44,700 bases of DNA, from NCBI GenBank assembly GCA_015063165.1, contig SUSZ01000015.1:1-44700 (forward strand). The letters are read 5' to 3'. Below the pieces are notes generated by a model. That model was not told where the DNA came from and ran no database searches. It saw only the letters and a program-made list of their open reading frames with translations. The translations under genes were made by a program, and so were the position numbers. The stretch is from Thermoplasmata archaeon (GTDB lineage Archaea > Thermoplasmatota > Thermoplasmata > Methanomassiliicoccales > Methanomethylophilaceae). Of the stretch, positions 16,901 through 44,144 are shown piece by piece. Each line of letters opens with the position of its first letter. Positions within the stretch are counted from its first letter, which is position 1.

Positions 16901-17606
16901 TGTCGATCAGGGCGCCTATGCCCATGGAGTTCACGGCGTCGTCCGGATAGGTCATGGTGAAGATACCTATCGCATCTGCGCCGCGGTCGCGGAGGGCTTT
17001 CAGCATGCCGTCCACGCCCCCACAGTTCTTGGACACCCAGAACCTCTGGTGGAAGATGACGCAGATGCGCGGGCGATCCTGCCTCATGGAAGCGACCGCC
17101 TCGTCTATCTCCAGATAGCTCTCCTCCAGAGTGTATGCGCCCTGCGCCGGCAATAGCAACGGCTCCGGAATCTCCACGTCCACGCCGTCGCATGTCTTGA
17201 GAGCCCATAGCAAAAGGGACCTGTAGTTCTCGTCCCCTCCAGAAGCCATGAACCTGGTTATCAATTCGAAGTCCTCGTCCGATCCTAGGAAAAGACTCCT
17301 ATGCTCGTCGGTGACGCGGACCTCGCTGTCGCACATCAGATAGGTGTTGATCCTGCTGGATTCCACCGTCTTCTCGAAGGCGGCGAACCTCTTGAAGTAG
17401 GTCACGTCGCCGTGAACCCTCATGAACACGATGTCGCTGTGGCGGACCTCGTCCAGGATCCTCTCGTTGAACAAGATGTCCGAGTCCATGTCGCAGGAGT
17501 CGGCTCCCACGATCTCCACGTTGTAACCCTCTTCCCTGAGGCCTCTGGCAGCGTCGTCCATGACATGCCCGTGATTGGCTCCTACCGAGATGCAGACGGC
17601 TCTCAT
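13920..17606 (-). CDS. cobN: CobN/ChlH-type chelatase large subunit, paralogue A
   Basis: A 1228-residue protein of the CobN/BchH family, of full family length. The core holds the conserved block VIHVGTHGTQEWLPGK, then [17 protein letters not shown], and a C-terminal region with LPTGRNFYSIDP, VVWATDTMRTGGDDISYVLWLMG and [18 protein letters not shown]. The family binds the tetrapyrrole and inserts Mg2+ or Co2+ with help of ChlI/ChlD-type AAA+ partners, which are encoded divergently at 21439-24350. The start is preceded by GGAGGATGAA. The neighbouring paralogue lies 41 nt upstream on the same strand, so the two are probably one transcript. Metal and substrate are not determined by sequence; cobalt insertion is the usual annotation. 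Confidence 0.88.
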   Translation of the reverse strand: MRAVCISVGANHGHVMDDAARGLREEGYNVEIVGADSCDMDSDILFNERILDEVRHSDIVFMRVHGDVTYFKRFAAFEKTVESSRINTYLMCDSEVRVTDEHRSLFLGSDEDFELITRFMASGGDENYRSLLLWALKTCDGVDVEIPEPLLLPAQGAYTLEESYLEIDEAVASMRQDRPRICVIFHQRFWVSKNCGGVDGMLKALRDRGADAIGIFTMTYPDDAVNSMGIGALIDRFLLKDGKPLVDCVVQTMGFSQTLRPRADAFEQSCDDDMFARLGVPVIQAIHLYGTSKKWKDSVYGLTGSEIAGAVVSPEYDGQLITVPIAGYEVMDDGRRRYIPLEDRCRMVADMAYMWANLRRKPESEKKAAILLYMYPPRNDLAGGASGLDTMESVASLLQSMASAGYTLDWVPNDGRELADRLLEGITNDNSWLSDQEIRRRASERIKASDYQGWLSEAPEAISGALKEGWGEPPGNVHVIDGDMLIPGLINGNIFVGFQPDRGKCDASAYHDPELAPPHQYLAFYRWLKHKFGADAVIHVGTHGTQEWLPGKSVGLSRDCFPDATLDSLPDIYPYIIDNPGEGMQAKRRGYAAVVTHMVPAMTRAETYDEISELESAIQLRLRAKATNMEESVRKAEEKIFEIVQAMDMGSDLDLPDMVEGVAERVDDIYDYVVEVKDALIADGLHILGKAPEGDLLKESVYSMVRNSNGDVPSMRSAVAEDMGLDFQSLLHDPSGTTEGRLNGDLVDEVDAECRRIIGCIADGQDVVLPGQRTVPVVDFIKSFLIPAIGRTGDEITSVLKALDGGYVEPGPSGCPTRGRARVLPTGRNFYSIDPDGIPWTSSWEIGCKMADQMIERYVESNGAYPRSVGVVVWATDTMRTGGDDISYVLWLMGLRPVWTEFGGRVVGLEAVPLSELGRPRVDVTLRISGLFRDAFPNLVYLIDEGVKTISTLEESDEDNALAANLRKDVLEAVLSGIPEDQARRDAQIRVFGDAPGRYGCGVNTLITNGQWKTVNDLGESYIDHGCYGYGKGYDGQAMPSQFRKRMGSLDVAVKNHNNRENDLFDMDDDYDFLGGMLAAVKASGGDAEAFMGDSSDTENLKSRTLHEECAFVFRSKVNNPKWLEGLKRHGFRGAQDISQLFDYVMGWSATSGVIDGWMYESLANRFVLDEATREWVMKENPYAMMNMLDRLEEAVYRGLWDADDDMKEKLDAIATDIEGRLEDLTDR

Positions 17607-17647
17607 TTCATCCTCCTATTATGTGTTAATACCTTTAATCATTACCA

Positions 17648-20600
17648 TCAGGGACGGTCGGTGAGGTCCTCCAGCTTCTCCTCTGCCTCGTTCCAGAGCT
17701 CTTCCAGCTTGCGCCTCATGTCGTCGTCGGCCTCCCACATCCCGCGGGATATGGCCTCGTCCAGACGGTCCAGGATCTCCGCCGCGGCGTAGGGGTTCTC
17801 GCGCTCCATCCAGTCCCAGGTATCCTTGTCCAGCAGATATTTCTCAGCGATGCCGTCGTACATCCACTTGTCCATGACGTCCGAGGTCGCATCCATTCCG
17901 AAGGCGTGCTCGATGACGTTCACCATCTCGGCCGCTCCGCGGTATCCGTGCCTCTTCATCCCTTCGATGTACTTCGGGTTGAGGAGCTTGCTGCGGAAGA
18001 CGAACTTCATCTCCTCCTCCAGGCTCCTCAGCTTGGTCTTGTTCGGATCGGAGCCGTCGCCCATATAGGACACGGCATCGGCGTCCCCGTAGGCCTTGAC
18101 GAAGGCGTTCATCCCTCCAAGATACCCGTAGACGTCGTCTATGTCCAGCAGGTCGATCTCCCTGTCCGGCATGTTCTTGACCGTAGCCGACACCTTGGAG
18201 AACCTCCTTACGAACTCGTCCTTCATCGACACCCCGGAGAAGCCTCTCCCGTAAGCGTAGCTGCCCCAGGCGACGTAGGAGTCCGCCAGGTCCTTCACGG
18301 TCTTCCAGTTGCTGGATTCTATCAGATGGTTCACTCCGGGACCGTAGGCTCCCGGCGGGCATCCGAAAATCCTCACGGACGAGCGCTTGCGGGCCTCGTC
18401 GTCGGGGATTCCTTCCCTTATGCGCTCCGCCAGGTCCTTCCTGAGATTCGCAGCCAGAGCGTTGTCCTCGTCCGACTCGTCGAGGGCCATGACCATCCTC
18501 GCGGCGTCGTCCAGAAGGTCAATCAGGTTGGAGAACGCGTCCCTGAACAGGCCTGTTATGCGAACCGTCACGTCGACCCTGGGACGGCCCAGCTCCTCCA
18601 GCGGGACGACCTCCAGGCCCGTGACGGTAGGTCCGTCCGGCGACCATACCGGCCTCACTCCCATCAGCCAGAGGATGTACGCGACGTCGTCTCCGCCGCT
18701 CTTGAAAGTGTCGGTGGCCCAGATGATGAATCCGATCTCCCTGGGGAATCCGCCCTTGTCCTCTATGTGGCGCTCGATCATCTGGTCTGCCATGCTCTTC
18801 CCGACCTCCCATGCCGAGCGTGTCGGGACAGTGTCCGGATCCAGACCGTAATAGTTCCTTCCTGTGGGCAGTATGTGGACCCCTCCACGGGTGGGGGCGC
18901 CGGAAGGCCCGGGCAGAACGTAACCGCCTGCGAGCGCGTCCAAGGCGGATCCGATCTCCCCTGCCGTCCCTTCCAGAGCAGGATAGACCCTATCGCAGAC
19001 GAACCTGACGGCCTTCAGAAGCCCTTCCGTGCTCCCGGGGACCATCTCCCTGCATGCCTTCTCCGCCTCGTCCCTGTCGAATCCCAGGGTGCGTATGCGT
19101 TCGATGAGCTCGAACGTCCTCGCATCAACCTCGTCTAGGTCGTCCTCCGACGTCTTCCCCATCGATTCTGCCACGGCGTCCCTCAGAGACGGTACGTCAC
19201 CGTTAGCCAGCCTGGTAAGCGAATAGACGGATTCGGTCATCAGCTCGCCCTCGGGCACGCGGCCGAGGATGTGCAGCCCGTCCCTGATCAGGGCGTCCTT
19301 CGCCTCGGTGACCAGGTCGTGCAGCTTCCAGATGTTCTCCCTGAGGTCGTCTATGCTGGACTCGGGGGTCAGACCGATGTCCTCCAGCAGGTTTTCCTCC
19401 GCGGCTGCTTCCAGAATCTCCCTCAGAACGGCGTCCTTTCTGGGCGCGGTGCCTGCTCCCATAGCCACGAGCTCCTGGATGAGCGAATCGATCCTCATGA
19501 GCCCGTCGTGGAGGCCGGCGCGGGTCATCACGGCGTTCAGATGCCCTATCAGGACGGCTTCCGAGCGCCTCTTGGCCTGCATGCCCTCCCCGGGATCGTC
19601 GATCATGTACGGGTAGATGTTCGGGATGGAATCCAGGACAACGTCCGGATAGCACTTGCCAGACAGCATCGAGGTCCTTCCGGGCAGCCATTCGAGGGTG
19701 CCATGGGTGCCCATATGGATCACGGCGTCGACACCGAAAGACCTGTCCAGCCATCTGTAGAAGGCCAGATACTGGTGGTGAGGGGGCAGCACCGGATCAT
19801 GGACGAGCTCGTCAGCGCCCTCGCCCCATCCTCTGGGCGGCTGCAGGGTGACGATCACGTTCCCTGAGACGAATCCGGGCACTATCATCCTGTTCTTAGC
19901 GGATGCGATATATCCGGGGGCGTCTCCCCAGCGCTCCCTGATCTGCCCCTTGTTGAATTCGGGAACCTTGTCGAACCACTCCGAATACTCTTCGGCCGAT
20001 ATGGCGGCTGGTGCCTTCTCCACTATCTGGGAATCGGTCCAGTTGCCGAAATCGTATGTGACCCCCGACAGAATCCTCTCCATGAGGGCCTTGGAATCGT
20101 CGGGAACGTCCCCTAGCGTGTATCCGGCGTCCCTCATGGCCTTCATTAGCTCCACCGTGCTCGCAGGAGCGTCCAGAGGTCCTGCGTTCCCTATGCGCTC
20201 GGAGCCGGGGCTCACCTGATACATGATTATGGCGACCTTCCTCTCCGAGGGCTTCTTGCGTCCCAGCCTGGCCCATCCTGCGGCCAGCTTGCAGACATGC
20301 TCCACCCTGTCCGGGATAGGCTCGGCCCGCTTCATCTTGCTCTTGTTCTCTGCGTAGGGGACGCCTATGATCTGGCCGTCGAGCTCGGGCCAGCACACCA
20401 TCGCTTTCAGGTCGCCCTTCACAGGCCCGTCGGCGGATTCCTCGTAGTCGGGGAGCCTTCCGGAGTAGGACATGACCTGTATCGCCGGAACTCCCAGCAC
20501 CGTCTTGAAGAAGTTCAGCTCGGGCGGGACATCAGCCGTCCCGGTTATCGAGATCAGCTGCGAGAACGGAGAGCAGACCAGAAGGACGTCGATGATCGTC

Positions 20601-21331
20601 CTCCCGTCCTTCTTGAAGTACTGCTCCGCGATCTCCGAGGAATGCCTGTTCTCCGAGGAGGATCCGGCGGAAGGGGTGTAGAACACGGGTATGACGTCCA
20701 AGCCGTTCTTCTCGAGGCGCTCTATCAGGAAGTCCACGTGCTGCATGTTCCCGTACAGCCAGAGGTTCGAAGGGAACATGATACCCACGACGGCGCGGTC
20801 TCCCTTCAGCGAATCGAGATAATCCTCCTCGGTGACGTCTATCGGGAACCCGCTGTGGTATATGCCGTCTGACCTGTTGACGATAGGCTCGGGAACGTCC
20901 GCTCCTGTCCCTCCCAGCATCCTGTAAGCGTAGAGGAGCAGGCCCTTGTCGTTGTCCCTCCCCTTCATGTCCGCGTATAGACACAGCTGGAGGAAGTCCT
21001 CGTCCTCTCCCACGAACAGGTCCTTGTACAGGAGACGGACCTCGGGGTTCTTGGAATGGAACAGCACCCTGCCGGTGCATTCCCTCAGGACCTTCTCGTA
21101 GTCCTCGAACCTGCGGAACTTGTACGGGTCCGCCATGCATCTGATGAGGATGAAGTCCGCCTTCAGGCTCTCCTCCACAAGCTCGCGGTAAACCAGAGGG
21201 TCGGATTCCACCACGTCGTGGTTGTATCCGAAGACCGTGAGGTCTATGCCCTGCTCTAAGCGGATCTCTTCCGCCAGCTCAGGAAAAACGGTCGCATCCA
21301 TGGATTGGATAGAAAGGCAAACGAACCTCAA
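17648..21331 (-). CDS. cobN: CobN/ChlH-type chelatase large subunit, paralogue B
   Basis: About 1227 residues, paralogous to the gene at 13920 over its whole length. Core blocks are [68 protein letters not shown] and [19 protein letters not shown] chose TTG at 21331 as start because it gives an N-terminus (MRFVCLSI) matching paralogue A (MRAVCISV) and sits 9 nt after GAGGGGA. A GTG at 21340 is the alternative, but its spacing to that site is too short. First gene of the minus-strand chelatase transcript, with a bidirectional promoter shared with the ChlI-type gene. Two adjacent large subunits with one ChlI/ChlD set suggest two substrates or metals, or a two-headed complex. Confidence 0.87.
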
Positions 21332-21390
21332 CGGCAGCACTCCCCTCTCGCAGTCAGACGTCCCATGTTATCGAGGGTCCATGCGTTTGG

Positions 21391-21402
21391 TTTATATTAA
21401 TA
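21391..21402. promoter_or_regulatory. Bidirectional TATA region between cobN and chlI-type genes
   Basis: TTTATATTAATA is the only AT-rich element in the 100-nt divergent spacer. On the plus strand it sits about 40 nt before the GTG at 21439, and on the minus strand about 60 nt before the TTG at 21331. Both genes also have ribosome binding sites, so short leaders are expected. Confidence 0.5.
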
Positions 21403-21438
21403 CGGACATTACATCCACCTCGTAATCGGAGGAATAAC

Positions 21439-22467
21439 GTGAGTCGCGTTTCCACTGTGTTCCCATTCGTCGATATCGTAGGTCAGGAAGAGATGAAGAG
21501 GGCCTTGATTCTCAATGTCATAGACCCGGGAATCGGGGGCGTCCTGCTCAAAGGAGAGAAAGGAACCGCCAAATCCACCTCTGTGAGGTCCCTGGGCGGA
21601 GTCCTTCCCATGAGGAAGTCCGTGAAGGGCTGCAGGTTCCATTGCGATCCTCGCGACCCGGATTCCATGTGCGAATCCTGCAAGAGCCTACTGAACGGAC
21701 CCGGATTCGAGACCGAGGAGGTCCCCATGGAGGTCGTCGAGCTTCCTCTGGGAGCCACCGAGGACAGGGTCGCCGGCACGATCGACATCGAGCACGCCCT
21801 GAAGACCGGAGAGAAGAGGTTCGAGCCAGGAGTCCTCGCCAACGCCAACGGGAACCTGCTCTACATAGACGAGGTGAACCTCCTCGACGACCACATCGTG
21901 GACATGCTTCTCGATTCCGCCGCGATGGGAGTCAACTACGTCGAGAGGGAAGGCATCTCGTTCTCACACCCCTCCAGATTCGTTCTCGTAGGAACCATGA
22001 ACCCCGAGGAAGGGGACCTCAGGCCCCAGCTTCTGGACAGGTTCGGACTGTCGGTGGACATCAAAGGCGAACACGACCCCAAGACAAGGGCCGAGATCGT
22101 CAGGAGGAGGCTGGCTTACGACGACGCGCCTGAGAAGTATGTTGAATCCCGCTCCGAAGAGACGGAGAAGCTCCGCTCCCGCATCGTGGATGCCAAGTCC
22201 CGCGTGCGCTCGATCGCCATCGGCCCGGAGGTCCTGGACGCGGTGGTCACGATAACATCGCATTTCGGCATAGACGGGCACAGGGCGGACATCGTCATGA
22301 TAAAAGCGGCCAGAGCCAACGCCGCCTTCGAAGGAAGGGACCGCATCATCTCGGACGACATAGTGGCCGTAGCAGGGCTCGTCCTCTCCCACCGCATGAG
22401 AAGGCGCCCGTTCGAGGACTCTTCCATCGACCGCGAGGAGCTCGAGAAATGCCTGAAGGACATCTAA
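21439..22467 (+). CDS. chlI: ChlI/BchI-type AAA+ chelatase subunit
   Basis: A 342-residue AAA+ ATPase starting at GTG after GGAGGA (21428-21433). Walker A is GEKGTAKST (residues 39-47), Walker [11 protein letters not shown] and the sensor region [21 protein letters not shown]. Four cysteines (C65, C69, C78, C81) form the CxxxC...CxxC insertion often seen in ChlI/BchI-type proteins. It should form the ATP-driven motor ring that acts with the ChlD-type protein on the CobN-type subunits. The next gene overlaps by 19 nt in another frame. Ends in TAA. Confidence 0.9.
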
Positions 22468-24350
22468 GCTACCCTTTCTCCGCCGTCTACGGCATGGAGG
22501 CGGCCAAGAACGCGATAAGATGCGCCATCTGCAGCCCCGGGATCCGCACCGTTCTCATAAGAGGGCCCTCCGGTTCGGCCAAGACGGTGCTCTGCAGGTC
22601 GCTCGACGGCCTCTCCGGGAAGAGATCGGTCAACATACCCTCCGGAGCCGACATCGACAGACTGTTCGGTTCCGTGGACATGGAGAGCCTCCTTGACACA
22701 GGCGAAGCCCGCCTGGAAAAAGGCCTCATCGCCGAAGCGGACGGAGGATACACTTTCGTAGACGACATCAACCTGATGGACGAACGTCTGTCCGTCTCTT
22801 TGCTCGACGCCGTCACCTCAGGAACCGTCCGCACCGAGCGCGACGGCATATCGAACGTATCGGCTGTCAATGTTGTCCTCGTGGCCACCATGAACCCCGA
22901 GGAGCGCGAGATGAGCGACCATCTGCTGGACCGCTTCGACATCTGCGTGAGCGTCGCTCCGGACGACGAGACGGAAGCCAGGAAGGAGATCGTCGCCCGC
23001 CGCATAGCATACGAGGACTCCCCCAAGAATTTCAACCAATCCTACGAAGAGGAGCAGGAGAAGGAGCGCAAGGCCATCGACGACGCCAGGAAGATCATAC
23101 CGCTGGTGAGCATCTCGGACGAACTCCGCCTCATCATCGCCGAACTCTGCGACAAGGTAGGCGCAGAAGGCATACGCGGGGATATAGCTGTCACCAACAC
23201 CGCGATAGCGTTGGCGGCCCTCGACAGGCGCGATTCCGTCACCAGGAGCGACGTGGAACGCGCCGCGGCCATGTGCTTGGTACATAGACGCCGCTACGAC
23301 CCCGAGCCCCCTCAGGAGCCTCCTGAGCCCGAGGAGGAGGATCCTCCGGAAGACCAGGAGCAGGAGCAGAGCGAGGACCAGGATCAGGACCAGAAGCCAC
23401 CTGAGAACAACGATGACGATCAGAAGGATGAGGAGCCTCCCGAAGAGGACGACAAGGACCAGGACAAAGGCATAGACCTGCCTCGCATAGACGACATGAT
23501 GTTCGAGGTCGGACGCCAGTTCAGGGTGATAGACTATCTCGGAAAGGGGAAGACCTCCGTCAAGCCGAACAGCAGCCGCAAGGGACGCCGTTCGGAGTTC
23601 GAATGCACAGGGACTTCCGGGAGGCAGGTCTCCGCCAGGATCCCTGAAGGCAAGACCCGCGACATCGCCTTCGCAGCCACAATGAGGGCCGCCGCCCTGT
23701 CTCAGAGAGGAAGGGAGCCCGGCTCCATGCGCATTATCGTCGAGGACAGCGACATCAGGGAGAAGATCAGGAGGGCCCGCACAGGATGCACCGTGATGTT
23801 CCTGGTGGACGCCAGCGGCTCCATAGGAGCCAGGAGGAGGATGTCCGCAGTCAAGGGGGCCGTCCTCTCGATGCTCAAGGACAGCTACGTCAAGCGCGAC
23901 AAGGTCGGCCTGATGGTGTTCAGAAGGAGGACGGCGGAAGTCATCCTGCCGCCCACCCGTTCCGTCGAGTACGGATACAAGCTCCTAGAGGACATCCCCA
24001 CAGGAGGAAGGACGCCTCTCGCCGCCGCGATGATAACCGCCAGCGACTACATGACCTCCTATTCCAGATCCCACCCGGGCGAGAGGTGCTACATCGTCCT
24101 GATGACCGACGGCAGGTCCAACGTCCCTTACATCGAAGGGAAGGACCCCAACCAGGAGGTGAAGGACCTGGCGGAGACCCTTGACGTCCCCGGGATCCAG
24201 TGGATCGTGGTGAACACAGGGAACGGATTCAGATTCTTCGACAGCGCCTCCGAGCTGGCATCCCACCTGGGTGCGCTATACTTCAACCTCGAAGAGCTGG
24301 ATGCCGATGCTCTCGCCACGAACGTGCGCGCAGCCGCCAACCTGGGATGA
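22449..24350 (+). CDS. chlD: ChlD/BchD-type AAA+ and VWA chelatase subunit
   Basis: A 633-residue protein: an AAA+ domain (about 1-260) with P-loop GPSGSAKT (39-46) and [11 protein letters not shown]; a long Pro/Glu/Asp/Gln-rich linker (about 280-345); and a C-terminal von Willebrand A domain with a complete MIDAS DASGS (454-458) and LMTDGRSN. The ChlD type bridges the ChlI-type ring and the large subunit through the VWA domain. The P-loop here looks intact, whereas many ChlD proteins have degraded ones. Overlaps the chlI-type gene by 19 nt, so translation is coupled. Ends in TGA. Confidence 0.9.
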
Positions 24351-32844: not shown

Positions 32845-33627
32845 TCAGTCCTCGTCCATTGGAACAGCGTCCCTGAGTATCACATGCGGACGTCCTTGGT
32901 CCTCGATGACCTTGCACTCCACCTGGTAGACCACCTTCAGGTTCTCCTCATTGATGACCTCGTCCGGAGTCCCGACAGCGTAGATGGAGCCGCCGTGGAG
33001 CATGATGATCTCGTCGGAATACTTCGCGGCTATGTTGATGTCATGGCTTATCATGATTACGAGGATGTCCTTCTCCTCCGTCAATCTCTTCAGCATCTTG
33101 GTGACATCGAGCTGGTGCCTGACATCGAGGTTCGAGGTGGGCTCGTCCAAAAGCAGAATCTCGGGCTCCTGGACCAAGCCCCTGGCGAGCATCACCTTCT
33201 GATGCTGTCCAGCCGAGAGCTCGTTGAACGAACGCATGGCGAGATGGGAGATGCCCAGCATCTTCAGGGTATCGTGGACTATGTCCAGATCCTGATCAAG
33301 AGTTCCCCATTTGCTATACGGATGCCTCCCCATCAGCACGGTGTCCACAACGCTCAGCGGGAAGGTATCGTTAGCGGAATACGGCACATAGCCCACCATC
33401 TTGGCCATCTCCTTGATGCTTATGTCGGAGACATTCCTGTCGTCGAGCATGATGGTCCCTGTCGTCGGAGACAATATCTTGTTGATGCAATGGATGAGAG
33501 TAGACTTCCCCACGCCGTTAGGCCCCAGTATAGATACGAACCTTGGTCCTGTGAGGTCTGCTGTAATATCGTGCAGAACCGGAACGCTGCCGTAAGCGAA
33601 GTCTATGTCGTTTATCTTTATACGCAT
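32845..33627 (-). CDS. FecE/BtuD-type ABC transporter ATPase
   Basis: A 260-residue ATPase of the iron-siderophore/cobalamin importer family. Walker A is GPNGVGKST (about 35-43), the Q-loop region lies near GYVPYSANDTFPLSV, the signature is LSAGQHQKV, Walker B ILLLDEPTSNLD, and the switch is the ISHD histidine. It should power the two permeases at 37534-39725. It is the last gene of the minus-strand cluster, 82 nt after the binding-protein gene, with a hairpin between. Substrate class (siderophore, haem, corrinoid, other metal chelate) cannot be fixed by the ATPase. Ends in TGA. Confidence 0.9.
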   Translation of the reverse strand: MRIKINDIDFAYGSVPVLHDITADLTGPRFVSILGPNGVGKSTLIHCINKILSPTTGTIMLDDRNVSDISIKEMAKMVGYVPYSANDTFPLSVVDTVLMGRHPYSKWGTLDQDLDIVHDTLKMLGISHLAMRSFNELSAGQHQKVMLARGLVQEPEILLLDEPTSNLDVRHQLDVTKMLKRLTEEKDILVIMISHDINIAAKYSDEIIMLHGGSIYAVGTPDEVINEENLKVVYQVECKVIEDQGRPHVILRDAVPMDED

Positions 33628-33709: not shown

Positions 33710-36700
33710 TCAGTTCAACGCGGATGCCAGAGCGGACATCATGGCGTCGATCTCTTCGGAGGTTGCGGCGGCGTTCCTATGGAGCTGGTACGAGCTGTAT
33801 CCGTCCACGAACACATCGCTTTCATAGACCGTGAAGAACAGCATGGTGAATGCGGAAGGTCCCATCGCCATGGTCACTGCCTTTCCGTAGAATCCGTCGA
33901 AGGAAGCTGTGGTAGTCACTTCGGTGGCAGGCATCCCCATATCCGCGATCATGGAATCCATCGTGGTCTTTGCCTCTTCGAAACGGACGGAAGCATCTGT
34001 ACATCCGTAGAACGCAACGGCAGTGGTCGGAGCCACTCTGGAACCGGTCTCGAATAGCGCTATCGCGAGCATGTCGTTGCTGCCCTCAGCTATCGACATC
34101 GTTCCGAAGGTGGAAACAGAGGAGTAGCTGGAGACGAACTTAGCAGCTACATCGTCCACATCTGCAGAGACCACGGTCTGGTGATCCATCGCGGACTTCA
34201 GAGCATTGAAGAATCCGTCAAACAGAGCGTCGGAGGATGCCCCGCGATAGGACTGGATCTTCAGGGTTCCGTCGACAGCCATGTTGCCCTCGGTCACCGC
34301 GAAGTACATCCAGGTCATGGTGCCGCCCATGCTGACAGTGTAGGTGCATGCGTTGGAGTTGTCGAATCCATACTTGGAGAGGTCTAGAGCGACCTTGGCT
34401 CCGTTAGCGTACGGATCTGGCTTGGCATCGACGGATGCGGACAGGGTCTCGAACAGGTCATCGGCATCATAGCTACCGAGGATGCGGAAATAGTGGCTGC
34501 CGTCGCTGACCATAGCAGAAGAACCGTCGGAATCGGACTCGACGAAGTAGGTTCCGAACATTCCTGACCCATAGCTGGACACGAACGCCGCGGCGACCTT
34601 GTCAGCTCCGGCGTTCAAGATGGTCTCGGGAAGCACATTGACGGTGCATTCGGCCTTGACATCTCCGACGGCGGCTGTGATGACAGCGGTTCCGTAGGCG
34701 ACTCCGGTGATGCTGCCATCTGCTATAATGGCGATCGACTCGTCGCTGGATGACCAGGTGACCGAAGAACCATCGCTGACGGTGGCCTCTATTCCGACGC
34801 TGTCACCGGCCACCAGACTGATGGTCGTCTCGGAGAGGTCAATGGAAGCAGGAGCAGAGGGCTTGTTCGAGCCTCCGGACGTTCCAACAGCCTTGGCAAG
34901 CGCGTCGAGCAGCTCTTTGATCTCCTCATCGGTCGCGAGATTTCCAGCATGGTACTGCCAGACCGTATATCCGTCGATGTAGACGTTTCCGTAATAGGCT
35001 GCGAACTTGAGAGCAGTGAACTTGGCCATGGCGGAAGCCTCGTGCTTGTACGCATAGCATCCGTCGAATCCTCCGCTGTAAACGAATTCGGTAGCAGTCT
35101 CCCCGGGCATTCCAAGAAGAGCCTCGATCTCTCCGGAGGAGACAGCGTTGTTGTATAGGGTCTCCGCAGCAGAGTTGACCCTGAAGACTATCGAAGGAGC
35201 CCTGGTTCCGATGGTGGCGACAGCAGTTGCGCTGGAATCGCTGGATCCAGCATCGACAGAATAGGTTCCGAAGGAGCCTGCTCCGTATGCGGAAACGAAA
35301 GCGGCGGCGATCTCGTCCGCTCCCATGACAGGGGTGACGGCTCCGGATTCGCTGGGATCGGAGACGGAGGAGGCGACCGCATCGACGAACTCCTTGAGCT
35401 CGTCATCGGTTGCCAGAGCCGAGGGGCGATACTGCCAAGTATCGTATCCGTTGACGAAAACGTTGCCATCGTATGCGGCGAACTTGAGCGCGGTGAATGT
35501 CGCCATGGCAGTAGCCTCGTGCTTGTATCCGCAGAATCCGTCGAAGGTTCCGGTGTAAGAGTACTCGCTGATGGTCTCGCCAGGCATTCCGAGGGGAGCC
35601 TCGATGGCTCCGCTGTTCACAGCGTCCTCATACATGGAGGCAGCCTCGATGTTCCCATCGAAGACTATAGTGAACGTCCTGGAGCCGCTGACCGCGGAAA
35701 CGCTGGCGTGCTTGGAGGTCGCGCCGGGATCAAGGGTGTAGGTTCCGAAGACACCATTGTACTTGGAGACGAAAGAGGAAGCGATCTTGTCCGCATCCGC
35801 ATCGCAGACGGTCTTGGTGTAGTCCTTCACGCTGTCGTCGATTACTGTGACGGTGCACTGGGTGCTGAGGCTTCCGATGGTGAGGGTGATGGTGGCGGTT
35901 CCTGCCGCGACACCGGTCACGGTTCCAGCGTCTACGGTGGCGACGGATGTGTCGCTGGACTTCCAGACAGTGGTTCCGGTGGCCTTGGAGCCGGCTGGAG
36001 CGGTGACATAGGACAGGAGCTTGGACTCGCCGATCTTGATCTCGGCGGTGTCAACATACATTGATATGGAAGTCGCTACTCCGCTCTCCCCAGACTCTCC
36101 ACCGAAGTCCTTCTTTCCGATGCAGAATCCGTGCTCGGAGACCTCGTAGTCGCTTCCGAGGTTCTGGATATAGCATATCTCGACCCATTTCTGGTTGATG
36201 TCGTCGCCGTATCCGGAGCTGACGTAGCTTCCGTACATGCATTCGACCGCGTATGCAACCTTGCAGATGAAGGGCATGCCGTACATGAAGAGGAACGTCC
36301 TGTCGGGACAGGCGTCCATCAAGGAAAGGGTGCTGGTGCTTCCGGTGGTGCTCTCCCAGACGGACTTCCAGTCTTCCTTGTCGTCGAGATAGCTGACAGA
36401 TGTCCTCACGGGAGCGAGGATGAAGTCCCCATTGTACTTGTCGTCGAGGATTCCGACAGTTCCGGAGGTGATATCCATGCTTCCGTCGGGGATCTCGATG
36501 AGGTCTCCGCCAGCGGCAGGGATAAAAGCCGAGACGGATGCGGCCGAAGAGGCATAGAATCCGGTTCCCATGCTTCCGGTCACCCAGCAGCATAGGACCG
36601 TGGGCTTTTCGCCAGCATCCTTGACGGCCTTGTCGACGGTCTCGTAGACGCTGTCCATCAGCCCTACGACCTTCTTCGCCTTGTCATCAGCTCCGCAGAG

Positions 36701-37441
36701 GAATCCGAGGGTGAGGTAGTAGTTCTCCTCCCCCTTGACATCGAACTTCATGGTGATGGTCTGAGTTCCGAGCTTAGACAGCTCCGCTTCGGTGTCAGAG
36801 TCGATGGGAGCCCCCATGCCTCCGTTGTTCTGGATGATGGCGTCGATTCCTCCGGAGACCTTGTCCGCCACGTTGGAGAACAGGGAGATGTCAAAATCGA
36901 CCATGGTGGAACTCACTGCAGGCTTGGACCAGATGTCCTTGTAGATTACATCGTTGGTTTGGGAGGTTCCGCTGCGTCCGTAGACGATGTCGGAGAGCCC
37001 AAGGGACTGTGCGGCGGTGAAGGTGGCGGTTCCGAGGACGCAGATGCTCTTGACCGGGTACTCGACGCTTTTGACATCGCTGTTCCCGTCAAGGTAGTAG
37101 ACGGTGGTCCCCTCCTTGCGGTCAGCGAGGTTCTGTGCGACCGTCGCATCGGCGGAATCTACCTTGCCGTCGTTGTTCGCGTCGGCGTAAGGGTAGAGCT
37201 TCTTCCAGTCGATGTCGTTAGACGAGTCGCTATCGCTGTTCTTGCTGACGATATTCTTGATCAGCGTGATATCGTCGGCGTTCAGATAGTCATCGTTGTT
37301 CGCGTTGCCGTAGACCTGGAGACGACCGTCGGAGTTCCCTACGATCTTCTCGGTATCATTGTTCTGCAAGAGAAGGAACGCTCCTATCCCTGCGACGATG
37401 ATTATCGCAGCTGCGACAACAGCCAGTATTTTCATGTTCAT
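33710..37441 (-). CDS. Giant anchored substrate-binding protein with dockerin-like, BIG2 and four novel repeat domains
   Basis: A 1243-residue exported protein. Residues 4-25 form an N-terminal membrane anchor or signal. Two dockerin-like Ca2+ motifs follow (GNANNDDYLNADD near 45 and DANNDGKVDSADA near 87). About 112-445 resembles a FecB/BtuF-type substrate-binding domain (SICVLGTATFTAAQSLGLSD, later SSAASVSAFIPAAGGDLIE). A BIG2-type Ig domain lies near 457-535 and another near 858-935. Four copies of an unrecognised domain of about 145 residues start near 548, 705, 938 and 1090, each with a phrase like ADKIAAAFVSxYGxxxFGTY and ending in a helix like ELLDALAKAV. Standard binding proteins have 300-400 residues, so about 800 are extra. 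It probably captures the substrate for the adjacent permeases, and the extra domains may bind cell-surface or polymeric material. Ribosome site AGGTGA lies before ATG. Confidence 0.8.
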   Translation of the reverse strand: MNMKILAVVAAAIIIVAGIGAFLLLQNNDTEKIVGNSDGRLQVYGNANNDDYLNADDITLIKNIVSKNSDSDSSNDIDWKKLYPYADANNDGKVDSADATVAQNLADRKEGTTVYYLDGNSDVKSVEYPVKSICVLGTATFTAAQSLGLSDIVYGRSGTSQTNDVIYKDIWSKPAVSSTMVDFDISLFSNVADKVSGGIDAIIQNNGGMGAPIDSDTEAELSKLGTQTITMKFDVKGEENYYLTLGFLCGADDKAKKVVGLMDSVYETVDKAVKDAGEKPTVLCCWVTGSMGTGFYASSAASVSAFIPAAGGDLIEIPDGSMDITSGTVGILDDKYNGDFILAPVRTSVSYLDDKEDWKSVWESTTGSTSTLSLMDACPDRTFLFMYGMPFICKVAYAVECMYGSYVSSGYGDDINQKWVEICYIQNLGSDYEVSEHGFCIGKKDFGGESGESGVATSISMYVDTAEIKIGESKLLSYVTAPAGSKATGTTVWKSSDTSVATVDAGTVTGVAAGTATITLTIGSLSTQCTVTVIDDSVKDYTKTVCDADADKIASSFVSKYNGVFGTYTLDPGATSKHASVSAVSGSRTFTIVFDGNIEAASMYEDAVNSGAIEAPLGMPGETISEYSYTGTFDGFCGYKHEATAMATFTALKFAAYDGNVFVNGYDTWQYRPSALATDDELKEFVDAVASSVSDPSESGAVTPVMGADEIAAAFVSAYGAGSFGTYSVDAGSSDSSATAVATIGTRAPSIVFRVNSAAETLYNNAVSSGEIEALLGMPGETATEFVYSGGFDGCYAYKHEASAMAKFTALKFAAYYGNVYIDGYTVWQYHAGNLATDEEIKELLDALAKAVGTSGGSNKPSAPASIDLSETTISLVAGDSVGIEATVSDGSSVTWSSSDESIAIIADGSITGVAYGTAVITAAVGDVKAECTVNVLPETILNAGADKVAAAFVSSYGSGMFGTYFVESDSDGSSAMVSDGSHYFRILGSYDADDLFETLSASVDAKPDPYANGAKVALDLSKYGFDNSNACTYTVSMGGTMTWMYFAVTEGNMAVDGTLKIQSYRGASSDALFDGFFNALKSAMDHQTVVSADVDDVAAKFVSSYSSVSTFGTMSIAEGSNDMLAIALFETGSRVAPTTAVAFYGCTDASVRFEEAKTTMDSMIADMGMPATEVTTTASFDGFYGKAVTMAMGPSAFTMLFFTVYESDVFVDGYSSYQLHRNAAATSEEIDAMMSALASALN

Positions 37442-37533: not shown

Positions 37534-38610
37534 TCAGACGAAATGCTCGCGCTTGTACTGCTTGACCAGTATGAACAGGAACAGTGGCCCTCCGACCACG
37601 GACATTATCACTCCGACCGGGAGAGCCAGCACCTTTGCCAGAGCATCGGACGCCACGAGCAGGACAGCCCCTACAGCGAACGAGCCCAGCAGCATGTACC
37701 GGGTGTTGGTCCCCATGGTCAGACGCACCACATGAGGTGCGACGATGCCGACGAACCCGATGGTGCCGGTGAAGGCGACCACGACTGCCACCATCATCGA
37801 CGTCAGCAGGAGACAGATGAAACGGACCCGGTTGGGATCCTCTCCCATCGTGAACGCTCCCCTATCCCCGGCGTTCATCACGTTGAGCTTGTCGGACATC
37901 AGCAGAATCGCAGCGCTTCCAATGACGGTCGCGCCGACGATTATGGGCATTTTCTCCCATCCCACGCTCTCGAGGTGTCCCAGACCCCATCTGAACGCTC
38001 CGGACAGATCCGAGGGATTGGCCCAGAGCATGAAGACGGTCGAAGCGGCCCCGAAGAAGTACATGATGCCTATTCCGACCAGGATCAGCTCCGCAGGGGA
38101 GGTCTTCCTGAACATCATCACCGCTATCATGGCGGCGGTCGGCACCAGGGACAGGATGAAGGCGTTCACGACGACGGCCCAATCCCCGGTGAGTCCAGGG
38201 ACGAGCGATATTCCCATGGCTATGGCGATGGTTGCTCCGAATCCTGCTCCGGAGGATATGCCTGTCGTGTAAGGGTCTGCCAAAGGGTTGCGGAACACAA
38301 TCTGCATCACGCATCCGCCTATGGCCAGAGCGCCTCCGACGAAAGCGGCGTTTATCGCTCTTGGCAGGAGCCTGTCCCAGAAGATCATATCGGTGAACCT
38401 TCCGGAAGGAGCCTCGAACCCGAACAGATGGTGCCCCAGGACGGCGTAGGAGGTCCAGTAGGACTGGCTCGTGTTGTTGCTGAACCCGTAGAGCGCTATC
38501 ACGCAGACTGCCGCCAGGATCAGGAACCCTATGCAGACCAGCTTCTGCTTCCTCAAGAAGGAGTGATAATAGGTCCTGACCTCGTTTGTAGCTTCGACAT
38601 CCTTCGACAT
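37534..38610 (-). CDS. FecCD/BtuC-type ABC permease 2
   Basis: A 358-residue permease with about ten membrane helices and the family phrases GGALAIGGCVMQIVFRNPLADPYTTG, GISSGAGFGA and TGTIGFVGIVAPHVVRLTMG (the coupling-helix region for the ATPase). I chose ATG 38610, giving an N-terminus MSKDVEATNEV before the first helix. It overlaps the end of permease 1 by 58 nt, so the two form a coupled pair. With permease 1 it should form a heterodimeric channel for a metal chelate or corrinoid-like molecule. Ends in TGA. Confidence 0.88.
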   Translation of the reverse strand: MSKDVEATNEVRTYYHSFLRKQKLVCIGFLILAAVCVIALYGFSNNTSQSYWTSYAVLGHHLFGFEAPSGRFTDMIFWDRLLPRAINAAFVGGALAIGGCVMQIVFRNPLADPYTTGISSGAGFGATIAIAMGISLVPGLTGDWAVVVNAFILSLVPTAAMIAVMMFRKTSPAELILVGIGIMYFFGAASTVFMLWANPSDLSGAFRWGLGHLESVGWEKMPIIVGATVIGSAAILLMSDKLNVMNAGDRGAFTMGEDPNRVRFICLLLTSMMVAVVVAFTGTIGFVGIVAPHVVRLTMGTNTRYMLLGSFAVGAVLLVASDALAKVLALPVGVIMSVVGGPLFLFILVKQYKREHFV

Positions 38611-39725
38611 CGGTACATCATCCTCCTTCCGCGTCTTCCGAGCAGTATGTAAAGGAATATCGGCGAGCCGACGAACATCATGACGATCCCCACAGGCAGG
38701 TCCACCTCGGCCAGGAACCTGGATATGGTATCCGCGAACAGCAGGATCACCGGACCCAGAAGCATGGACGCCGGGATCACGTACCTGTTGTCCGCTCCCA
38801 GGATGGTCCTGACCATATGAGGGGCCAGTAGTCCGATGAATCCGATGATGCCTGTGAACGACAGGATGACCGCGACCATCAGGGATGAGACGATCAGGAT
38901 CGTGTACCGGACCTTGTTGACATCCACCCCCAGGCTGGTGGCGGATTTGTCTCCCAAGGCCAGCGCGTTGAGGTACTTGGTCGTCAGCATCAGGATGGCC
39001 GTGCATACCACGGTCCCGATGAGGATTATCCAGATGTTGTTCCAGTCGATGTCCGTAAGGCTCCCTATCTGCCAGCGGAACGACGATGTGAGGGTGTCGT
39101 CGTCCGTCCTGACCATCATCAGAGTGGTCAGTCCGCTGAAGAAATACGATATCGCTGTTCCGGCGAGGATCATCGTCACTGGAGAGATCCCTTTCATCAC
39201 ACCCACCAGCACTATGATCATCGCGCATGGGACGAGGGCGAAGATGAAGGCGTTGCCGATTATCCCATAGGTCCCTATGTTTCCGAAGGTGAATCCGAGG
39301 ATGATGGCCAGACAAGCTCCGAACACTGCTCCCGAGGACACTCCGAGGGTGTAAGGCTCTGCCAGGGGGTTGTTCAGAACGACCTGCATGGCCGCTCCGC
39401 ACACCGCCAGACCGGCACCGCATACGATGGCCCCAAGGACGCGGGGCATGGTGCTGTTCCAGACGATGTAATCGTTCCAGAACTTCACCGGCTCCTCTAT
39501 CCTGTCGTAGGAGACACCCATGATATGGTCAACGATGGCCATTATGCCGTCCCAGAACGTCATGTCCCTCCCGCTGACGGTGACCGAGTATCCCAGAAGG
39601 ATGAACATTGCAACAGCCAGGAGTATAATGAACAGCACCTTGCGCCAGATGTAGTTCTTGTACTCCGCGCGGAAGCCTTCGTCGGTGTCCGCCTCGGGTG
39701 TGGGATGACGCTTCAGGAAGCTCAA
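38553..39725 (-). CDS. FecCD/BtuC-type ABC permease 1
   Basis: A 390-residue permease with about ten helices and the family phrases CGAGLAVCGAAMQVVLNNPLAEPYTLG, GVSSGAVFGA and TGIIGFIGLLAPHMVRTILG. The start is a TTG at 39725 preceded by GGAGGGTGA, giving MSFLKRH. The C-terminus runs on with a basic tail (GRRGRRMMYRCRRM) that overlaps permease 2 in another frame. It follows the NifK/E-like gene by 44 nt on the same strand, which ties the importer to the nitrogenase-like proteins. Ends in TGA. Confidence 0.87.
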   Translation of the reverse strand: MSFLKRHPTPEADTDEGFRAEYKNYIWRKVLFIILLAVAMFILLGYSVTVSGRDMTFWDGIMAIVDHIMGVSYDRIEEPVKFWNDYIVWNSTMPRVLGAIVCGAGLAVCGAAMQVVLNNPLAEPYTLGVSSGAVFGACLAIILGFTFGNIGTYGIIGNAFIFALVPCAMIIVLVGVMKGISPVTMILAGTAISYFFSGLTTLMMVRTDDDTLTSSFRWQIGSLTDIDWNNIWIILIGTVVCTAILMLTTKYLNALALGDKSATSLGVDVNKVRYTILIVSSLMVAVILSFTGIIGFIGLLAPHMVRTILGADNRYVIPASMLLGPVILLFADTISRFLAEVDLPVGIVMMFVGSPIFLYILLGRRGRRMMYRCRRMSKLQTRSGPIITPS

Positions 39726-41018: not shown

Positions 41019-43364
41019 TCAGTGGCCTCCTGTCATGGATTTGATCATCTGGAGCATGTCTGGAGGGACCCCCTCAGGCATCTTGCCCTCCTTCATCTGG
41101 TTGAGGGCAGCCTCCATCTTAAGAGGCATGTGGCCTCCCATCATCGCCTTGATGGCTTCGATCTGCTGCTGGGTGATCTTCACAGGCTCGGCCTTGCCCG
41201 TCTCCGGCTTCGATTCTTCCTCGCCCTCCCAGCTCCTCCATCCCATCGTAGGGGCGCTGGTCATCATCGTATGCATGTAGTCCAGATACTCGATCGAAGC
41301 GTAATGGGTGAAGCACTGGTAGTCGCGGCTGAACTCCTTGAACTGCTGCCCGTGCCATCCTATCATTACCCCGCCTATGACCATGTCTGGGTTGCTCTCC
41401 TGGACAGCCATCTTTATCTCCAAGGGGTTGGACATCTCGCGCACGTTGAGCCTGTCCTTGTAGCGAGACTCGAAATCTGGGCTGGGTCCGCTCCCTCCTC
41501 CGATCCTCATCCTGAAGACGTAATAATTCCTGATCTGGACGCCCGCATCGATAAGTACCTCGATCATCCAGTCGTCGTCTCCCAGGATCCCCGAGATTAT
41601 ATCCGCGGTCTTCCCCTCGAAGAACGGCCTGTGCCTCTCGAGGGCCTCCGCATACTGCTGCTTGATCTTTTCAGAAACGGCCTGAGAACGTTCCTCGATG
41701 CCGTACTCCTTTCCGACCTTCTCCACCCATGCCAGGGTGTCCGAGTACCCCTTCGGGAGGGGTTCGGAGAAGATCTTCATGCCCTTCTTCTCGGCCATGG
41801 CGTCGGCCATTCCGTTCACGGTAGGGTCGTCAAAGGTTCTGACGTTCAGAATGTTCTTCTTGCAGCCGACGACCTCGTCCAGGAACACGTTGTCTATGAT
41901 CTTGTGAACCTTGGAGAAACCGAGGTCCTTGAGCAGCCTGTTGGTCCATTCGCTGTTCCTTCCTGAAGAATACACGATGAAATTGTCGTCGATCAGGTTG
42001 CATTCCATGTCGACAGGCTCGCGAGCCTCGTCGATGAAGTCGATTATAGCCTGCATGGCCATAAGACGGCCCTCTTCGGATCCCCCGGTGAGGTTCCCAT
42101 CGGCCTTCACGACCACGAGATTGAGCCCGGGGTACTCCTCCTCGGCCTTCTTCTTGATGAGGTCCAGGTTGTCCCCTATCATTCCAGGGACGCAGGTGGT
42201 GATTACCATGATGGTCCTCTTTCCCTTGTTGGCTTCAGCGCGGATTATGCGCATGAGGTCCTCATGCCCTCCGAAGATGGATGAGTCGTTGCTCATGCGT
42301 GTGGACTGGATGTTGTTCCTCAGGATACCGACGGTGCTGGGATTCGTTCCCATCTCGGTGAGGAAATGGACGTCCTGCGTGTGGGACATGACATAGCCAC
42401 AGCTCGCAGGCCCGTGGATGATGATCGGGAGGTCGTTGACCCTTCCTGCAGCGAATACCGCTCCACGGCTCGCGCAGGAACCCGTTCCCCTACGGACCTT
42501 GTTGCAGTGGCAGGCTTCTCGCTTGAAGTTGCCCAGAACGGTTATGGCCTTGCCAGCGGCCAGATCGTTGAGCTGGGCGTCGCTGAGAGGATGAGGGTCG
42601 TAAAGCTTCCTTACGCCGGTGCTGATCGCTATGACGTCGTTAGCCAGCTGCCCATAGATGGAGGCGGGAACAGAATCGGGGAAAGCTTCGGAAACGGTCT
42701 TCCCGAGCCGCTCAGCCTCGATGAACTCATCGGAACGGGGGATGTCGACCACTATAGGGAGACCCACCCCGTCAGAGAACCTCTCCACGATCTCGCGTTC
42801 ATTCTCAACATTCCTCCTGTTCAGAATGATCCCGGCTACCCTAGGACGGGCGGAGCCGAAATTGAGCAGCCCGCGGAGTATGTTATTGGCCGCATAGATG
42901 GCCATGAACTCCCCTGACGTGACGATGTAGACGGCATCGGCGTATTCGTTCCTCATAGGGACCGCGAAACCGCCGCACACGACGTCTCCGAGAACGTCGT
43001 AAAGTGTGATGTCCTTATCGATCTCGTTGATTCCCATCTTCTCGATGGTGTCGAAGGTCGTGAGAATCCCTCTTCCAGCACATCCTATGCCGGGTTCAGG
43101 GCCTCCAGCCTCGATACACATGACACCGCCGGAACCTTCGAGCATGATGTCTTCGAGCTTCCTCTGTGACGGAGGAGTGCTTCTGATGTAATCCAGAACC
43201 GTCGTCTGCTCCTTGCCGTTGATAAGATACTTGGTGGAATCGTGCTTGGGATCGCATCCCACCTGAAGCACCTTCACCCCTTTTTTCGCCAGGGTGAACG
43301 AGAGGTTCGAAGACGTCGTGGATTTGCCGATACCGCCTTTACCGTATACTGCGACTTGCAACAT
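41019..43364 (-). CDS. NifH-NifD fusion: nitrogenase-like reductase
   Basis: A 781-residue single chain. Residues 1-255 are a NifH/BchL/CfbC-type ATPase: P-loop GKGGIGKST (8-16), switch GCDPKHDST (36-44) and the cluster cysteines C95 ([12 protein letters not shown]) and C130 (GDVVCGG). After a short linker, residues 275-700 are NifD-like: C297, C322 (HGPASCGY) and C391 ([11 protein letters not shown]) match the three P-cluster cysteines in spacing. The region of the FeMo-cofactor Cys reads YSSGRNSEW without Cys. A Met-rich tail (720-781) has two IK(A/S)M(M/T)GGH motifs. NifH and component 1 are normally separate, docking transiently. The reading frame is continuous with no stop or shift. It cannot be the ordinary F430 enzyme pair CfbC/CfbD, where the subunits are separate and there is no NifK-type partner. 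TATA AATATTTAAAT lies 22-32 nt before ATG. Confidence 0.9.
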
Positions 43365-43598: not shown

Positions 43599-44144
43599 TT
43601 ATGCATCCATCCAACGGCTTCTTGCAAGCCAGCGCTTCACCGAATCTCCGCACGACTTCACGTCCGTGCCGCGGATGGGCAGGCCTTCAGCGATGTTAGC
43701 ACCAGGTGCGCAGGTCGCTATCATCTCGACGCTGGTTCCCATGCCACTCCCTTCATTGGTACATAGGGGATGTATGGTCTTCCCTTCCCAGCTGTTCCTC
43801 TCTAGGAACGTCGCCACTGGCATCGGGATGGTCCCGCACCAGTTTGGATAGCACAGATAGACGTCATCGTATCCCGAGATATCCGGACAAGACCTGAGCG
43901 CCGGGCGATGAGACTCGACCCATTCCTTCTTAGCACGCTCCACCTGGCCCCGGTATTTCCTGGAGTACAGGTCCTTGGGGACTATCTCCATAGACAGACA
44001 GTCGAGCTCCATTGACAAAATGGTGGCAGCAACCTTGGTATTCCCCGGATCGCGCTCCTCGTACTTTCCGTTCACATATGTTTCTCCGGGCACGGAGAAG
44101 AAAACCACGCAGCGCGATCCTTTTCCAGAGGTTACATCCATCAT
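43599..44144 (-). CDS. Flavodoxin-like protein
   Basis: A 181-residue flavodoxin fold. The N-terminal strand is RCVVFFSVPGETYVNGKYEE, where the usual phosphate loop TxTGxT is modified to SVPGETYVNG. The central block YDDVYLCYPNWCGTIPMPVATFLE and the following GKTIHPLCTNEGSGMG are typical of the flavodoxin_4 group, binding the FMN ring. It could supply low-potential electrons to the NifH half of the fusion next door, as flavodoxins do for nitrogenase. It has its own promoter, and a 234-nt spacer separates it from the fusion gene. Ends in TAA. Confidence 0.85.
   Translation of the reverse strand: MMDVTSGKGSRCVVFFSVPGETYVNGKYEERDPGNTKVAATILSMELDCLSMEIVPKDLYSRKYRGQVERAKKEWVESHRPALRSCPDISGYDDVYLCYPNWCGTIPMPVATFLERNSWEGKTIHPLCTNEGSGMGTSVEMIATCAPGANIAEGLPIRGTDVKSCGDSVKRWLARSRWMDA

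Follow-up and report, generated by a model that had tools for sequence, protein, structure and literature searches.

The window, i.e. the whole 44,700-nt stretch analysed here (Thermoplasmata archaeon, Methanomethylophilaceae; assembly GCA_015063165.1, contig SUSZ01000015.1, positions 1 to 44,700), carries a gene encoding a NifH-type ATPase and a NifD/E-type subunit in one chain, followed by a partner subunit of the same superfamily (Table 1). Stop codons interrupt the plus strand at 41019–43364; the open frame of the fusion exists on the minus strand only. The partner gene starts on the same strand, 1 nt after the stop codon of the fusion, and has a ribosome-site-like motif, GGAGG.

Table 1. 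Features of the window discussed in the text (positions in nt)
Feature	Coordinates	Strand	Remarks
CobN-type class I chelatase large subunit	13920..17606	minus	PF02514 1191.9 bits; TIGR02257 930.8 (cut-off 822)
Second CobN-type chelatase large subunit	17648..21340	minus	PF02514 1168.8 bits; TIGR02257 884.2 (cut-off 822)
ChlI/BchI-like chelatase AAA ATPase	21439..22467	plus	profile matches
ChlD/BchD-like AAA plus VWA chelatase subunit	22449..24350	plus	profile matches
BtuD/FecE-type ABC ATPase	32845..33627	minus	profile matches
Large protein, 1243 aa, Ig-like (Big_2) repeats and weak BtuF-type match	33710..37441	minus	PF02368; PF01497
Second BtuC/FecCD-type permease	37534..38610	minus	PF01032 246.6 bits; start inferred at internal ATG
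BtuC/FecCD-type permease	38553..39725	minus	PF01032 283.9 bits
NifK/N/BchB-like partner subunit, 415 aa	39770..41017	minus	Oxidored_nitro 139.8 bits; conserved C31, D6
NifH-NifD fusion gene	41019..43364	minus	unbroken frame, 781 aa
C-terminal tail, residues 706-781	41022..41249	minus	from alignment and predicted model
NifD/E-type domain	41250..42476	minus	cluster cysteines C297, C322, C391; FeMoco Cys and His absent
Linker, residues 273-296	42477..42548	minus	short, flexible; length differs across fusion family
NifH-type ATPase domain, residues 1-272	42549..43364	minus	P-loop 8-16; C95 and C130 for 4Fe-4S cluster; R98
Flavodoxin, possible electron donor	43599..44144	minus	PF12682 47.3 bits

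The original prediction of a single chain running unbroken from a NifH-type to a NifD-type domain, with a separate NifK/E-like gene 1 nt downstream, was borne out by the frame, by the Oxidored_nitro match of the partner and by the Pfam domains of the fusion: Fer4_NifH (PF00142) over residues 3–270 (299.7 bits) and Oxidored_nitro (PF00148) over residues 297–669 (144.1 bits). The P-loop and all five cluster cysteines (C95, C130, C297, C322 and C391) were also located where they had been predicted. In an alignment of 19 fusions, C95, C130, C322 and C391 do not vary and C297 is almost invariant; the nucleotide motifs of the normal Fe-protein cycle are conserved in the fusion along with R98 (in GCAGRG), which we take to be the equivalent of the nitrogenase docking arginine. 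The NifH domain matches nitrogenase Fe proteins with a TM score of about 0.90 (Foldseek). In the AlphaFold2 model of the fusion (pTM 0.54) both domains are well folded and the linker is disordered (pLDDT < 50 at residues 284–294); the domain arrangement is of low confidence and no docking geometry was taken from the model. Beyond the NifD domain the chain ends in a helical tail of 76 residues, which is restricted to about three to four of the closest orthologues (L027–L029).

Among the other genes, the 1243-aa protein joins Ig-like repeats with a weak binding-protein domain (PF01497, 23.9 bits, under the cut-off of 27.5) inside the transporter operon. A flavodoxin gene lies upstream of the fusion not only in the window but likewise in three other genomes (G026, G025 and G001). 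The window also encodes a methanogenesis marker 16-type protein and, at 13920–24350, a complete class I metallochelatase, with two CobN genes in tandem and ChlI and ChlD on the opposite strand. The marker 16-type protein, the named relatives and the abundance of BtuC-type genes all suggest that the host belongs to the Methanomassiliicoccales.

Distribution and family membership of the fusions

The host genome (2.28 Mb) contains six full-length NifH-type genes. One of them, CfbC, is a stand-alone gene coding for 268 residues and shares its contig (C50) with CfbD; the other five are fusions with frames of 687 to 781 residues, each adjoining a K-type gene. The same fusion was sought in other genomes and found widely: the relatives have dozens of copies, many of them at 34–91% identity with no break at the junction, and among 60 relatives scanned most genomes of the host genus have one to seven copies. 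In a single scan of named genomes, fusions outside the order were detected in Methanococcoides, Methanosarcina and Methanoregula, as well as in bacteria (Clostridium tetanomorphum, Sporobacter, Peptococcaceae, Lachnospiraceae, Eubacteriaceae, Treponema and Myxococcota). That an assembly or annotation artefact joined two genes has a negligible likelihood, given that the frame is unbroken here and in dozens of independent genomes from several phyla; five fusions in the host genome and intact junctions in relatives exclude chance or artefact as the origin of this architecture.

Several variants of the architecture were observed. A Myxococcota MAG encodes a chain of 1085 aa (L095, 2627–5884) with the order NifH-NifH-NifD, in which both NifH copies retain the P-loop and the cluster cysteines; genes for a binding protein, a FecCD permease and an ATPase lie downstream. 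In Schwartzia succinivorans (L158, 10756–13131) a locus of the unfused type has D and K subunits in one 791-aa chain. Seven fusion genes of relatives (L032, L052 and L171–L175) contain an in-frame TAG, a codon that members of Methanomassiliicoccales reportedly read as pyrrolysine (PMC4153887). We considered and rejected a switch in which pyrrolysine at the junction would decide between free NifH and the fusion; the in-frame TAGs are scattered and only two of the seven are at the NifH–NifD junction.

Both halves were placed in trees. The NifH tree (82 rows, including one CfbC and few Bch references) places the fused rows in one branch (support 97/90), along with four others that are separate or truncated; the tandem NifH copies of the myxobacterial chain are the only fused rows to fall elsewhere. 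In the NifD tree (67 rows, few Bch references) all fused rows, the myxobacterial one included, together with two secondarily split rows fall into a single branch (87/96) that is distinct from NifD, BchY, the CfbD of contig C50 and the clostridial set. Bch rows, few in number and on long branches, stay outside the fusion branch in both trees. Since both trees have several long branches and few references, their supported result is that the fusions are not inside known families. Profile scores are below family cut-offs: 306.9 against 394 for NifH (TIGR01287), 64.3 against 654 for NifD (TIGR01282) and 320.9 against 402 for CfbC (NF033200), and the fusion is far below the cut-offs for BchL, BchX, BchN and BchY.

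The claim that the system is neither nitrogenase nor CfbCD is thus upheld by the position outside the references in both trees (with the one CfbC in the NifH tree), by sub-cut-off scores and by the absence of FeMoco ligands. CfbCD is itself a nitrogenase-like tetrapyrrole reductase of methanogens, similar in this respect to the role we propose for the fusion, and is present in the host genome as a separate pair. It differs in having a separate CfbC and a homodimeric CfbD with no K subunit, whereas a distinct K gene adjoins all five host fusions and nearly all other fusions examined. The host CfbC (L013) groups on another branch, with unfused clostridial and Treponema NifH such as L076 and L113 (100/97). 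A duplicate of F430 biosynthesis was accordingly rejected as an explanation, as the host has separate CfbC and CfbD and both scores and tree placement differ.

The unfused NifH-D-K sets of Clostridia and Treponema (e.g. L076 and L113) share with the fusions the FecCD importer neighbours and the single K-side cysteine, but they are separate genes, lie on another branch in both trees and have often lost the first NifD cysteine. There are hints, from the grouping with CfbC, that these unfused sets may also act on tetrapyrroles; importer genes adjoin L076, L113 and other NifH relatives in this group. Among characterised enzymes, COR (BchX, BchY, BchZ) resembles the fusions in having 3+1 cysteines for one 4Fe-4S cluster and no FeMoco, and it is a tetrapyrrole enzyme whose pathway also includes a class I chelatase (BchH, BchI, BchD); it differs in that BchX is a separate protein, the substrate is a chlorophyll and the tree distance is large. 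DPOR (BchL, BchN, BchB) is likewise an ATP-driven tetrapyrrole reductase with no FeMoco, but BchL is separate and the C95 position is occupied by Asp in BchB and by Cys in the fusion partner.

The original prediction had put the system forward as a candidate for an undescribed one, which did not hold. Dos Santos et al. (2012) mentioned fused NifH/NifE-like plus NifN-like proteins in one phrase and proposed a link to metal transport (PMC3464626), and Borrel et al. (2014) listed a ‘fused nifH/nifE’ in a Methanomassiliicoccales genome (PMC4153887). The fusions of those papers (Archaea, Firmicutes, Deltaproteobacteria) have the same architecture and gene order as ours; the papers give no ligands, clade, context or function for them. 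Functional work on the fusions was not found in the literature searched, in which subscription papers were few, and in the PDB no chain covers NifH and NifD together among the best 60 of 128 matching sequences. The analysis confirms the tethered nitrogenase-like reductases as an essentially single-branch family, mentioned in print and uncharacterised.

Cluster ligands

NifD domains of 64 fusions and 63 partner proteins were aligned together with BchY and BchZ references. On the fusion side, the equivalents of NifD C62, C88 and C154 are conserved in 63, 64 and 64 of the 64 sequences, respectively. FeMoco Cys275 is present in none of the 64, and the His442 column is a gap in all of them. Of the 63 partner sequences, 61 have Cys at the position of NifK C95, 58 have Asp at that of C70 and 59 have Pro at that of C153. 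D6 and C31 of the window partner are 25 residues apart, like C70 and C95 in NifK, so the spacing supports the alignment. The window partner also has C100 two residues before the C153 position, outside the conserved columns.

The ligand set of the nitrogenase P-cluster, three cysteines from D and three from K, is thus complete on the D side and reduced to one cysteine on the K side (in 61 of the 63 partners). The BchY/BchZ references in the same alignment have this 3+1 pattern, and with three cysteines in the catalytic half and one in the partner a single 4Fe-4S cluster of the BchYZ kind is expected rather than a P-cluster. The earlier statement that three cysteines occur at P-cluster spacing therefore stands for the cysteines and not for a P-cluster, as the partner keeps one of the three K-side cysteines. 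Judged from the residues, the pattern points to one 4Fe-4S cluster bridging D and K, next to an empty cavity that could hold a bound substrate. Tetrapyrrole-reducing members of the family carry only 4Fe-4S clusters (PMC12552129).

Gene neighbourhoods and co-occurrence with CobN

Clusters with the order CbiZ-ChlI-ChlD-permease-ATPase-fusion-K-CobN occur at three loci of Methanomassiliicoccaceae (L063, L065, L066); CbiZ, ChlI, ChlD and CobN of L065 and CobN of L066 were assigned by Pfam, the remaining genes by similarity and gene order. By similarity, the same CbiZ-to-CobN set was found in Methanococcoides (L081) and Methanoregula (L086). Elsewhere the neighbours are different genes: a CbiA/CobB-type protein, a BtuR adenosyltransferase and a tetrapyrrole methylase near the pair at L064; a CbiK-type chelatase next to the host paralogue on contig C40; CobT and CobS in a Treponema MAG (L093), where they follow genes for a binding protein, permease, ATPase, fusion, K and one more protein; and, after the fusion of a Sporobacter MAG (L087), CbiX, a class III aminotransferase (HemL-type), HemB, CobA-HemD and HemC. 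No recognised tetrapyrrole gene was found near the bacterial fusions L085, L088, L092 and L104. CobN lies at most 10 kb from 14 of 81 fusions; the expected number is 5.1, itself an overestimate. The signal that the neighbourhoods have in common across lineages is tetrapyrrole metabolism.

The host genome (G000) has 31 FecCD/BtuC-type permease matches, six CobN genes and five fusion pairs. Adjacency to FecCD genes was considered as main evidence and then downgraded, because 31 such genes in the genome make chance neighbours common. Expansion of BtuC in Methanomassiliicoccales has been tied to B12 handling (PMC10804542).

Co-occurrence was counted in 60 Methanomassiliicoccales genomes. All 34 genomes with CobN have a fusion, seen in a few of them only as contig-end fragments; of the 26 CobN-less genomes, 24 have none and two (G033 and G040) have one. 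The Fisher p values (9e-15 overall, 2e-4 within the host genus and 6e-5 outside it) are uncorrected for kinship and too small, since the compared genomes are related. Within the genus, the CobN-less genomes G008, G014 and G022 all have no fusion, and G014 is a single-contig genome. Contrasts in the same direction were observed in several genera (G031/G032, G034/G035, G046/G043, G049/G052 and G059/G055). Outside the order the link is looser: 6 of 12 fusion-bearing genomes have CobN, as does 1 of 10 that have unfused sets only. A general role of the fusion as a stand-in for the missing B12 enzyme CbiJ was rejected, since the host and nearly all of its genus encode CbiJ as well.

Proposed function and alternative explanations

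We propose that the fusion and its partner form a low-potential reductase of the tetrapyrrole type that is nitrogenase-like, driven by ATP and comparable in its working to DPOR, COR and CfbCD, and whose substrate would likely be a corrinoid or close tetrapyrrole handled together with importers and a chelatase; we give this reading a probability of roughly 55%. The substrate class is suggested by gene context and by the behaviour of family members with no FeMoco. Against it counts that the chelatase genes of the window are ~17 kb from the fusion, in a separate operon, and so do the fusions of the CobN-less genomes G033 and G040, the looser link to CobN outside the order and the bacterial fusions with no recognised tetrapyrrole neighbour. 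Within the literature searched, this substrate hypothesis appears to be new.

The oligomer, electron path and reaction may be pictured as follows. NifH domains would pair around a shared 4Fe-4S cluster (C95, C130), bind ATP through the P-loop, dock on the NifD/K face and hydrolyse ATP. Electrons would pass one at a time to the single bridging 4Fe-4S cluster, held by C297, C322 and C391 of the NifD domain and C31 of the partner with D6 beside it, and from there to a substrate held directly in the NifD/K cavity with no FeMoco-type cofactor. The substrate, most likely a corrinoid or close tetrapyrrole, would enter through BtuFCD-type importers and be processed with the CobN-ChlI-ChlD chelatase. 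Its ring or metal would be reduced for salvage, remetallation or rebuilding; the reaction could be a ring reduction or a lowering of the metal oxidation state before exchange or adenosylation. The tether would hold the Fe protein at its partner. As each chain has one NifH and docking needs two, the other would have to be supplied by a second chain, a neighbouring half-complex or free CfbC; in the myxobacterial NifH-NifH-NifD protein both copies are on one chain. It is a fair inference that the covalent tether changes the docking mechanism of the Fe protein.

The strongest competitor, in our view a distinctly less probable one, is metallophore or metal-chelate processing, in which an imported Fe, Ni or Co chelate would be reduced by the tethered reductase to free the metal. 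Importers of the FecCD type adjoin the window pair, the Treponema and Myxococcota fusions and, likewise, the unfused clostridial relatives, and the link to metal transport suggested by Dos Santos (2012) points the same way; however, such genes are very common in the host genome (31), and this explanation accounts neither for the CobN, ChlI/ChlD, CbiZ, CobT/CobS, Hem and CbiX neighbours nor for the co-occurrence with CobN. Breakdown of heme or another porphyrin, with a CobN-type protein removing the metal and the fusion reducing the freed or metallated macrocycle, is suggested by HmuS, a CobN-family heme de-chelatase of gut bacteria (PMC12583661) and one of the PDB matches of the window CobN; guts are also the source of many host genomes. 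We regard it as improbable, since true CobN (709.8 bits) is a closer match to the window CobN than HmuS is (396.3 bits), the window CobN is above the CobN equivalog cut-off, the neighbours of the fusions are mostly corrinoid genes, and ChlI/ChlD are present in the window, whereas de-chelation by HmuS is ATP-independent (PMC12583661).

Two further explanations invoke other branches of the superfamily. The NifD half resembles NifE in sequence, and NifEN also has a 4Fe-4S site of 3+1 cysteines, so that the pair could be a scaffold for the assembly of a metal cofactor rather than a catalyst. NifB, which would fit such a scaffold, scores above the cut-off on host contig 38 (L161) in a genome that has no nitrogenase; there it probably serves the clusters of MCR activation, which explains NifB in methanogens (PMC12176620). 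The Oxidored_nitro genes found in the host are the five pairs and CfbD, which leaves a scaffold with no client nitrogenase, and G014, a single-contig genome from the host genus, has no fusions; a scaffold role is quite improbable. Slightly less probable still is a reductase of organosulfur compounds or sulfonates like MarHDK or IsrHDK, which belong to the same superfamily; a cysteine-synthase-like gene, judged by eye, lies beside the bacterial fusion L104. The P-cluster cysteines of Mar number 3+3 and the enzyme binds an Fe8S9C cluster (PMC12552129), and the fusions have neither the K-side cysteine set nor the FeMoco ligands. Among the window genes scanned, neither NifB, O-acetylhomoserine sulfhydrylase nor other sulfur-metabolism neighbours of Mar/Isr (group IV) were found.

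If the reading of the pair as a reductase acting on corrinoids or close tetrapyrroles is carried over to the whole family, the fusions may, tentatively, represent a new branch of corrinoid/tetrapyrrole reductases that depend on ATP and have the Fe protein covalently attached. This branch would have multiplied in gut methanogens, together with CobN chelatases and BtuFCD importers, into a system for the salvage or metal exchange of scavenged corrinoids; its delivery cycle would be intramolecular, with NifH-NifH-NifD as the extreme form. Characterised nitrogenase-family enzymes have a free Fe protein that docks and then leaves. With a tethered family, which in one case has two consecutive NifH domains, it becomes possible to examine to what extent this cycle requires full dissociation. 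The analysis also gives a candidate substrate class to a protein family known for more than 10 years with no function assigned. If the substrate prediction is true, corrinoid-dependent gut methanogens would carry a tetrapyrrole reductase of this kind in several copies per genome.
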